Below, piece after piece: positions 50,962 through 53,184 of a DNA stretch of 64,000 bases. Both the position numbers and the translations under genes were made by a program. Position 1 is the stretch's first letter. Each line of letters starts with the position of its first letter. A model generated the notes under the pieces. It searched no databases. It saw only the letters and a program-made list of their open reading frames with translations, and was not told where the DNA came from. The DNA is from an uncultured Lachnospiraceae bacterium (GTDB lineage: Bacteria > Bacillota > Clostridia > Lachnospirales > Lachnospiraceae), in assembly GCA_951802115.1 (NCBI GenBank), contig CATOPL010000004.1, positions 62,001 through 126,000 on the forward strand, read 5' to 3'.

Positions 50962-51040
50962 AAATGCATTTCCTCCCGAACATGAGGTCTGAATGCCCTC
51001 TTTAAACAAAGCCAACTGTTTTAAAAAAACTGAGCCGACA

Positions 51041-51979
51041 TTAAAAATATACCAGCTCCTCTTCTGGTTTTACCGCCTTTTTTATATTGGTAGAATGGAG
51101 CACGATTCCTTCTTCGCCGTTATATTCCGGACGCTTTTCGACCTGCGCTTTTGCCGTCACCGTAATCCATTGCCGCTGTTTTAAGCGGTCTATATACGCA
51201 GAACTGCAGAGAAACCCGATAAAAGCCGTATCATCTGCACAACACGTCATAGCCATACGGCCCGGCACAAAATATCCCTCTGGCAGATGCTTTCCATTAT
51301 AAACCATGGCTGTAAACTGCAGAAGCTTCCCATCATATTTCTCCGGATGATCCATGGCGTCAATATACCAGATTCCATAGTCCGCATCCGCAATCTCAAT
51401 CACATCTGCTTCCAGATCAAACGGCAGCTCCTCCTCAAATTCCAGCATGGCGCCGTCTTCTTTCTCAAAAACCACCTGCGCCTTCGGATTCACAGCGCGC
51501 ATATTCCTTTTATAAGTAGCAGCCGGAATATCGTCACTGCTCCGATTGAAAATGATCAAATCTGAATCCTTTGCCATTTCCATAAAAAGCGACTTCATGT
51601 TTTTAAGATACACATCAAAGGTAGACGCATCCACCACGGTAATCACCTGCGCCACAAACCACCCTTTTGGCATGTACATATCGCGCAGAAAATCCATCCC
51701 CCACATACAGTTGTATTCCAGAACAATCTGTGTGGGCTTGTATTTTTTCTGGCATTCTGCAAGAAACATTTCGTTAAACTCACTTTTGTCTTCCAGCATT
51801 ACCAGAGTGGCATTGGCCTGTTTTAATATTTCTTCATCATATTCTTCGATTCCTTCTTCGCAGGCAAGCACCAGATTGCGCTCTCCGCCGGAAAAATATT
51901 CGTCTGCAAGAGTTTCCAGTGCAAATCTGGTTTTACCGCCCTCCAGAAATCCATGAATCACAAATACAGGAATTTTCAT
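51041..51979 (-). CDS. Degenerate G3E GTPase fused to a YcgQ C-terminal-like domain
   Basis: 312 residues. N-terminal part (about 1-195) has the G3E/CobW layout: Walker A GFLEGGKTRF, VVDASTFDVY, and a base-recognition strand LIIFNRSSDD. The conserved ExSGxG Walker B segment is replaced by LEYNCMWGMDF, and the GCxCC metal-binding motif is missing. C-terminal part (about 210-312; DGKLLQFTAMVYNGKHLPEG, MAMTCCADDTAFIGFLC, QWITVTAKAQVEKRPEY) resembles the C-terminal domain of YcgQ/DUF1980 (TIGR03943), including its CC motif. In Bacillus, YciC-type GTPases and YcgQR are zinc-linked genes. It lies 34 bases downstream of an intact His-rich G3E GTPase, so a role in zinc or other metal delivery is inferred. 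Confidence 0.72.
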   Translation of the reverse strand: MKIPVFVIHGFLEGGKTRFALETLADEYFSGGERNLVLACEEGIEEYDEEILKQANATLVMLEDKSEFNEMFLAECQKKYKPTQIVLEYNCMWGMDFLRDMYMPKGWFVAQVITVVDASTFDVYLKNMKSLFMEMAKDSDLIIFNRSSDDIPAATYKRNMRAVNPKAQVVFEKEDGAMLEFEEELPFDLEADVIEIADADYGIWYIDAMDHPEKYDGKLLQFTAMVYNGKHLPEGYFVPGRMAMTCCADDTAFIGFLCSSAYIDRLKQRQWITVTAKAQVEKRPEYNGEEGIVLHSTNIKKAVKPEEELVYF

Positions 51980-52013
51980 AATCAGCTTCTCCTATCTTAC
52001 TGCCATTGCACCC

Positions 52014-53075
52014 TCAAAGCTCAAAAAGCTTTGTCAGCTCTTCTTCACTCAGATGAGAACCGATCACACAGAGACGTCCGGTATAATCCGCCTCTCCATG
52101 ACGCACTTCATATTCTTCCGGTACCATGTCAAAGTGCAGCCATCCTCCGTCTGTACAGGGGACGATGCCTTTGGCACGCAGAATAATCCCGCAATCGTCG
52201 TCATTTGAAAGCTTTTCCAGTATTTCACAAAGTTTCTCCTCACTGTATTTATGCGGTGTCTCCTGTCCCCAGCTTGTAAATACTTCATCTGCATGATGAT
52301 GGTGATGGTCATGACAGCCGCAGTCTTCTCCATGCACATGGCAGTGTTCATGCTCTCCATGCGCATGATGCTCATGACTGTGTTCCTCATGGTCGTGATG
52401 ATTATGATCATGCCTGTGATCATGGCATCCACAGTCCCCGTCATGCACATGCGCTTCCAGTTCTTCTTTCATCAGCAAGTCCTGATGCTGCATCGCTGCC
52501 AGAATCTGCTCTCCTTTTAATTCCTCCCAGGGAGTCGTAATAATCGTCGCCGTCCCGTTTTTCTCCCTCAGCATCTTCACGCAGGCTTCCAGCTTTTCTT
52601 CTGTCATCTTCTGTGTGCGGCTGATCACAATCGTCCCTGCATGCTCCACCTGATTATTAAAAAATTCCCCAAAGTTTTTCATATACATCCGACATTTCTG
52701 TCCGTCCACCACCGTCACCGAACTGTTCAGCTCCACCGGTTCATGCGCAGCCACACCCTGTACCGCTTTCGTTACATCCGACAGTTTCCCCACACCTGAC
52801 GGTTCAATCAAAATACGGTCCGGAGCGTAAGTTTCGATCACTTCCTTGAGCGCGCTTCCAAAATCTCCCACCAGAGAACAGCAGATACAGCCCGAATTCA
52901 TCTCTGTGATCTGAATACCCGCTTCCTTTAAAAATCCACCGTCGATACCAATCTCTCCGAATTCATTTTCAATCAGGACAATCTTTTCTCCTGCAAACGC
53001 TTCCTTTAACATTTTTTTGATCAACGTGGTCTTTCCGGCTCCCAGAAAACCGGAAACAATTTCAATTTTCGTCAT
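52014..53075 (-). CDS. G3E-family GTPase with His-rich metal-binding insert (CobW/ZNG1-like)
   Basis: 353 residues. Motifs in order: Walker A GFLGAGKTT, ENEFGEIGIDG, metal site SGCICCSL (CxCC), EPSGVGKLSD, VVDGQ, then an exceptionally His/Asp/Cys-rich stretch at about 205-270 (HDHRHDHNHHDHEEHSHEHH and more), and a C-terminal CobW_C domain (about 275-353). Such proteins bind zinc or cobalt and use GTP to insert it into client enzymes. The His tail stores or buffers metal. Zinc is the most likely ion from family precedent. Probably co-transcribed with the downstream fused GTPase. I saw no Zur-type operator upstream. Confidence 0.88.
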   Translation of the reverse strand: MTKIEIVSGFLGAGKTTLIKKMLKEAFAGEKIVLIENEFGEIGIDGGFLKEAGIQITEMNSGCICCSLVGDFGSALKEVIETYAPDRILIEPSGVGKLSDVTKAVQGVAAHEPVELNSSVTVVDGQKCRMYMKNFGEFFNNQVEHAGTIVISRTQKMTEEKLEACVKMLREKNGTATIITTPWEELKGEQILAAMQHQDLLMKEELEAHVHDGDCGCHDHRHDHNHHDHEEHSHEHHAHGEHEHCHVHGEDCGCHDHHHHHADEVFTSWGQETPHKYSEEKLCEILEKLSNDDDCGIILRAKGIVPCTDGGWLHFDMVPEEYEVRHGEADYTGRLCVIGSHLSEEELTKLFEL

Positions 53076-53116
53076 ATTCTGCTCCTTTTCTGTATCCCGC
53101 TAAATCGTATCTCTGT

Positions 53117-53167
53117 AAAACGAAGCCCTCGGAAACCTGCCTGTCCAAGCAGTCCTCCCAAGGGCTT
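53117..53167 (-). terminator. Terminator of the infC-rpmI-rplT operon
   Basis: On minus: GCCCTTGG / CCGAGGGC stem followed by TTCGTTTT. Confidence 0.75.
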
Positions 53168-53184
53168 TTGTGCAACATAGTCTT

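Follow-up and report, generated by a model that had tools for sequence, protein, structure and literature searches.

A COG0523-type GTPase and its constant pseudo-G3E partner in Clostridia, a probable docking component in a bacterial zinc system about which little is known

Zinc chaperones of the COG0523 type have been studied in depth (PMC2770081, PMC13339975), and how they obtain or pass on their zinc is an open question. The proteins YcgR and YcgQ, named ScfAB in group A Streptococcus and SMU.746-747 in S. mutans, have no known substrate (PMC5584981). They are conserved membrane proteins of Gram-positive bacteria with infection, acid-tolerance and biofilm phenotypes. The series of gene fusions described here joins the first question to that of the YcgR/YcgQ substrate, adds a third constant component and makes a testable prediction, namely that the chaperone is docked at the transporter. 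The folds and the chaperone class are already known; new are the constant partner and the link between chaperone and transporter. In the open literature, where most subscription papers are missing, we found no G3E relative fused to DUF1980_C or YcgR. Likewise, the open literature, with the few subscription papers it covers, yielded no papers on DUF1980 or TIGR03943 and none on their fusion to CobW, and the main text of Haas et al. 2009 makes no mention of ycgR, a permease or a fusion.

We analysed a stretch of 64,000 nucleotides (the window) from an uncultured Lachnospiraceae bacterium, in which an earlier note had singled out a pair of genes encoding 353 and 312 residues. Both reading frames were confirmed at the positions given there. 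They lie on the minus strand, the GTPase gene first and the fusion gene second, with a gap of 34 nt. We use the name 'Deg' for the cobW-type domain without CxCC that forms the N-terminal part of the second protein. The locus contains the following features:

52014..53075, minus strand: COG0523-type G3E GTPase, 353 aa, with CxCC and CobW_C (Pfam cobW E 4.5e-39, CobW_C E 2e-7)
52293..52451, minus strand: His/Asp/Cys-rich insert of the GTPase, residues 209-261, 24 His by residue count
52878..52889, minus strand: CICC metal motif of the GTPase, residues 63-66 (CxCC invariant in 33/33 aligned G3E domains)
52611..52622, minus strand: SRTQ of the GTPase in place of NKxD, residues 152-155 (alignment with relatives)
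51041..51979, minus strand: fusion protein, 312 aa, pseudo-G3E (Deg) plus DUF1980_C (Pfam; 50/50 scanned homologues match both families)
51470..51970, minus strand: Deg domain, residues 4-170, without CxCC (Pfam, alignment, fold search)
51047..51439, minus strand: DUF1980_C, residues 181-311, predicted OB-like fold (Pfam; model and fold search)
51230..51244, minus strand: CCADD, candidate metal site of DUF1980_C, residues 246-250 (conservation in homologues)
51032..51058, minus strand: terminator-like hairpin ending the fusion gene and setting apart the downstream prepilin-peptidase-like gene

The neighbours of the pair are rplT and the prepilin-peptidase-like gene, and no zinc genes are found near it. 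The latter neighbour, a type IV leader peptidase gene (PF01478, 50251-51015), follows directly on the same strand beyond the terminator-like hairpin. Between rplT and the GTPase gene, at 53076-53184, there is a GC-rich long-loop hairpin (AAGCCCTTGGG...CCGAGGGCTTCGTTTT) that probably terminates transcription of the ribosomal-protein operon. The related loci L114-L193 have recurrent neighbours of their own, named by eye: a 255-aa YlmH-like protein (16 loci), an Mfd-like protein (14) and peptidyl-tRNA hydrolase (13). These are probably chromosomal context only.

A search of 391 Clostridia genomes gave matches in 149 of them, about 76 of which carry the full-length fusion (hand count from the listing). 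Four gene layouts were observed. Layout A, the form found in the window, consists of the G3E gene and Deg::DUF1980_C and is free of a permease. Layout B comprises the G3E gene, a fusion of Deg with the permease YcgR (cobW and PF03773 within one 541-aa protein) and YcgQ. In layout C, Deg is a separate protein of about 210 aa next to G3E, YcgR and YcgQ, and layout D has only YcgR and YcgQ. The earlier note had staked its reading on the joint conservation of the two genes, and they are indeed adjacent in 75 of the 80 named layout-A loci; four of the remaining five begin at a contig end, and at L164 the fusion has no adjoining G3E. The note had also presented the fusion as linking two parts associated by gene neighbourhood. 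The fusion and its relation to YcgQ stand, and the picture is wider, as Deg is also found fused to YcgR or as a separate protein.

None of the 80 named layout-A loci has an adjoining YcgR permease gene, and the window's genome contains no true YcgR. Its sole ArsP_1 permease was considered as a hidden YcgR and rejected: it adjoins an ArsR-like gene and matches YcgR weakly. Strong YcgR matches occur in only 2 of 80 genomes of the window's family, and the two frames concerned are about 530 aa long, the size of Deg::YcgR. Outside Clostridia, matches in 299 genomes drawn from the phylum covered DUF1980_C only; Deg therefore appears to be confined to Clostridia.

The 353-aa protein is, judging from its sequence, a probable zinc-delivery GTPase. 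With the COG0523 zinc metallochaperones (YciC/ZagA, ZigA, YjiA, ZNG1) it shares the P-loop (Walker A GFLGAGKT at 9-16), CxCC, ExSGxG (EPSGVG, the ExSG Walker-B-like motif, starting at residue 91), CobW_C and a His-rich insert, and in a profile search its closest solved structure is YjiA (E 5.3e-29). It differs from them in having a constant pseudo-G3E partner gene and in its base-recognition motif, which reads SRTQ rather than NKxD, TKxD or SKxD. Thus, of the full set of G3E motifs that had been claimed for it, the P-loop, CICC and EPSGVG are present but NKxD is not; the long His/Asp/Cys-rich insert is there as described. The S-R-T of SRTQ is invariant among 10 aligned GTPase homologues, and SRT or SRS was found in 73 of 75 named relatives, which means that SR is conserved in the subfamily while the last position varies.

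Pfam matches residues 4-170 of the 312-aa protein to cobW (E 3.8e-7). This Deg domain has Walker A at 10-17, CEEG from residue 40, EYNC at 88-91 and, where NKxD would be expected, NR at 145-146. We aligned 54 Deg domains from three gene layouts. Without exception, they keep the P-loop GxxxxGK(T/S), E-x-G in switch I and a Walker-B-like E-x-N, and all 54 have a deletion of the GCxCC loop, as the earlier note had seen for Walker A and CxCC in the window's copy. Its statement that the ExSGxG segment is lost holds for the serine, which is Asn in 54/54, but the glutamate is kept and the glycine after ExN is retained in 53; the window's own EYNCMW carries a rare G91-to-C change. In a maximum-likelihood tree the Deg domains as a whole separate from the 33 G3E domains (100/97), although these include another COG0523 clade, one with motifs of the NKxD type. 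The word 'degenerate', used earlier for the partner, is thus better replaced: on the alignment and the tree, Deg forms a branch of its own within the G3E fold, under constraint and spread across Clostridia, and is not a decayed copy.

On motif conservation and adjacency we reject a decayed pseudogene or a chance neighbour. As for a G3E copy still in decay and fused by chance, the N-terminal domain's low score against cobW and, in the window's copy, the replacement of G91 by C might point that way, but motifs invariant in 54 domains, the full-length fusion in about 76/391 Clostridia genomes and an open frame without a stop make it extremely improbable.

The structure model of the 312-aa protein has a pLDDT of 89.7. 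A fold search with it placed HypB, UreG and YjiA nearest to Deg (Z 12.6-14.2) and a profile comparison with YjiA gave E 6.1e-7; a search for solved homologues from the single sequence returned none. HypB and UreG, nickel chaperone GTPases whose fold Deg shares (Z 12.4-14.2), function as nucleotide-dependent dimers. They differ from Deg in serving nickel enzymes, in lacking DUF1980_C and in possessing metal motifs that are missing in Deg. The SRP GTPases Ffh and FtsY are also fold neighbours (Z 11-12.5) and form an unlike pair, one half of which is docked at a membrane machine; they target proteins rather than metals, and the comparison concerns only the way they work. The CobW-related selenoprotein NF041053 gave a weak profile match to both proteins of the pair, far under the cut-off for each.

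The C-terminal part of the 312-aa protein had been likened to that of YcgQ, and residues 181-311 do match DUF1980_C (PF21537, E 1.2e-20, 74 bits against a cut-off of 25.9). Of the two profiles proposed for checking this, PF21537 thus scores above its cut-off; TIGR03943 (E 2.5e-20) reaches 72.8 bits, below its cut-off of 88.8, and aligns at C-terminal model positions 101-220 only. All 50 fusion homologues in alignment A3 match both cobW and DUF1980_C. None of the 50 has a predicted membrane segment, and the N-terminal DUF1980 membrane domain is absent. Since TIGR03943 stays below its cut-off and the 50 fusions are free of membrane segments, the 312-aa protein is not a YcgQ. It shares with YcgR/YcgQ (ScfA/ScfB, SMU.746/SMU.747, TIGR03943) the C-terminal domain of YcgQ and the CCxxD motif, and layouts B and C combine this G3E and this Deg domain with complete YcgR/YcgQ pairs; it differs in its lack of membrane segments, its score under the TIGR03943 cut-off and a genome without YcgR. 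A candidate second DUF1980_C in the window's genome (C9) was dismissed at 11 bits, far under the cut-off.

C246, C247 and D250 are invariant among the 50 fusion homologues, the surrounding GRxxMxCCxxD is almost invariant, and CCxxD occurs in 28 of 29 separate YcgQ proteins. Modelled alone, DUF1980_C has a pLDDT of 91 and resembles OB folds, the best Z of 9.0 (Ten1, MCM N-terminal domain) being slightly above background. Applied to 25 YcgQ proteins with 3 predicted segments, the positive-inside rule predicts an extracellular C-terminal domain (p 0.006). This prediction concerns the YcgQ of L023 and L074-L101 and is the opposite of the domain's place in the window's fusion, as DUF1980_C in layout A must be cytosolic. 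Either the topology call for YcgQ is wrong or the domain changed compartment upon fusion. Predicted outside in one protein and necessarily inside in the other, it may do different jobs in the two.

In the tree, the DegQ (Deg::DUF1980_C) fusions form a single clade (99/91) nested among Deg::YcgR (a 38-row branch, 97/79). The A-type GTPases are likewise nested within the B-type ones (100/98), and the Deg and G3E trees branch alike. Layout A apparently arose once, from layout B. In the simplest history that these trees would allow, Deg was coupled to the permease first, and the window's form later lost the permease and kept the soluble domain of YcgQ.

One may ask whether the two proteins work together at all. 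As two independent chaperones, Deg::DUF1980_C would be a lone carrier with a CCxxD of its own, and adjacency would reflect shared expression. The invariance of CCxxD would suit such a carrier, as would the fusions without an adjoining G3E (L164 and the L099 paralogue described below), but near-universal adjacency and the alike branching of the Deg and G3E trees leave it quite improbable.

Regulatory pseudo-GTPases usually have lost the metal loop and kept the nucleotide pocket. Deg shows the same combination, and its GTPase partner is constant, which is why Deg::DUF1980_C may be such a subunit: it would sense free zinc via CCxxD and switch the GTPase in a GAP- or GEF-like manner while carrying no metal to a client. 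Against this, Deg in layout B is fused to the permease, which points to docking at the transport step. We consider the regulatory role unlikely, though the strongest of the competing readings; the earlier note had offered regulation and client delivery side by side, and we infer that docking or client delivery fits the 312-aa protein better.

The loss of the permease in layout A is accompanied by a change in the GTPase. The median number of His residues is 42 in layout A (n=47), 5 in layout B (n=18) and 2 in layout C (n=6), and the lowest two layout-A counts (L098 and L104) belong to G3Es from a different clade. The correlation sits on one branch of the tree, so it counts as about one event. 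It is in keeping with a His-rich store that takes the place of the lost transporter.

The zinc connection proposed in the earlier note finds its evidence in relatives, not beside the window's pair. ZnuB, ZnuA or Fur-family genes occur near 11 of 19 layout-B loci, from 5 GTDB families, and 12 of 97 layout-A loci have genes for ZnuABC, the Fur family or ZIP-like proteins close by; ten representative neighbours were verified by Pfam (ABC-3, ZnuA, FUR, Zip). In layout B, L092 reads znuC-znuB-fur-G3E-Deg::YcgR-YcgQ, L106 znuB-fur-G3E-Deg::YcgR-YcgQ and L100 znuA-znuC-znuB-G3E-Deg::YcgR-YcgQ-G3E. In layout A, L147 and L149 read G3E-Deg::DUF1980_C-(sfsA-like)-znuC-znuB-(lipoprotein)-fur, and L147 also contains the start of znuA. 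Zinc-type neighbours in 5 of 11 layout-B families correspond to p of about 1e-5 at an assumed background of 3% per neighbourhood, a generous estimate of ours, for which the window's genome supplied the counts (1 ABC-3 gene, 2 Fur, 0 ZIP). In B. anthracis, Zur binds upstream of the ArsP_1 permease BAS1632, which has been likened to SMU_747c (PMC6336718). The BAS1632 probe came from the same primer pair and intergenic fragment as that of yciC (PMC6336718), so the binding lies on the intergenic region shared by yciC and the permease.

Zur sites in relatives had also been suggested as a check. Upstream of 162 G3E genes, consensus sites for Zur, Fur, PerR and AdcR were at or near the shuffled level, the Zur consensus being that of Bacillus, from which the Clostridia motif may differ. 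A short Fur pattern with 3 mismatches showed a small excess in the same regions (21 vs 11.5).

It is worth stressing that Fur-family is not the same as Zur, and that Fur-family and ABC-3/ZnuA neighbours, not being specific to zinc, can also serve manganese or iron. The module might then serve another metal or metal complex (manganese, iron, cobalt or nickel), in uptake or efflux. The ArsP_1 permease family includes arsenic exporters, and the flat Zur-box count, taken with the Bacillus consensus, would agree with such a role. On the other side are the ZIP and His-rich ZnuA neighbours, the His-rich inserts of the GTPases and Zur binding at a related permease (PMC6336718). We regard another metal as unlikely, slightly more so than the regulatory role, and the link between the G3E/Deg module and zinc as supported.

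The reading we prefer, with a probability of roughly one half, is that the two genes encode a single module for allocating a metal, zinc being the most likely one, and that Deg docks the GTPase at the site of hand-over. That the genes form one module is supported by their near-universal adjacency, the Deg-YcgR fusion, the separate Deg in the same gene sets and the alike-branching trees. Deg probably serves as the docking component in this zinc system, about which little is known in bacteria. G3E and Deg would be the unlike halves of a GTPase dimer of the HypB/UreG or SRP type, in which Deg would stay in place as the docked half. Where the permease is present (layouts B and C), Deg would bring the chaperone to the transporter, and metal would pass between YcgR/YcgQ and the GTPase. 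In layout A, it would bring the chaperone to the CCxxD of the OB-like domain, where zinc could be transferred within the cell to or from that site, and the His-rich insert of the GTPase could act as a zinc reservoir.

A more specific and more tentative proposal is that Clostridia possess a nucleotide-controlled zinc permease run by an asymmetric G3E:pseudo-G3E pair, the pseudo-half lying within YcgR, which would hand zinc between transporter and chaperone. One lineage would later have dropped the permease and taken the soluble domain of YcgQ into the cytosol, giving a soluble relay for zinc with a His-rich reservoir. The window's form would be a natural soluble version of the complex, and its purification and structure determination should be less difficult.

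Several loci contain further Deg proteins. At L099:4868-5803, a Deg::DUF1980_C paralogue without a G3E stands among DUF1667-like, isochorismatase-like and HMGL-like proteins. Second Deg::DUF1980_C paralogues are found at L098:3167-5227 and L104:3574-5669 together with G3Es of another COG0523 clade, which have NKTD or SKCD and only 3-4 His. A G3E of that clade is also the additional one at L100:3262-4365, where it follows YcgQ. Partners of the Deg type may thus have exchanged their GTPases.
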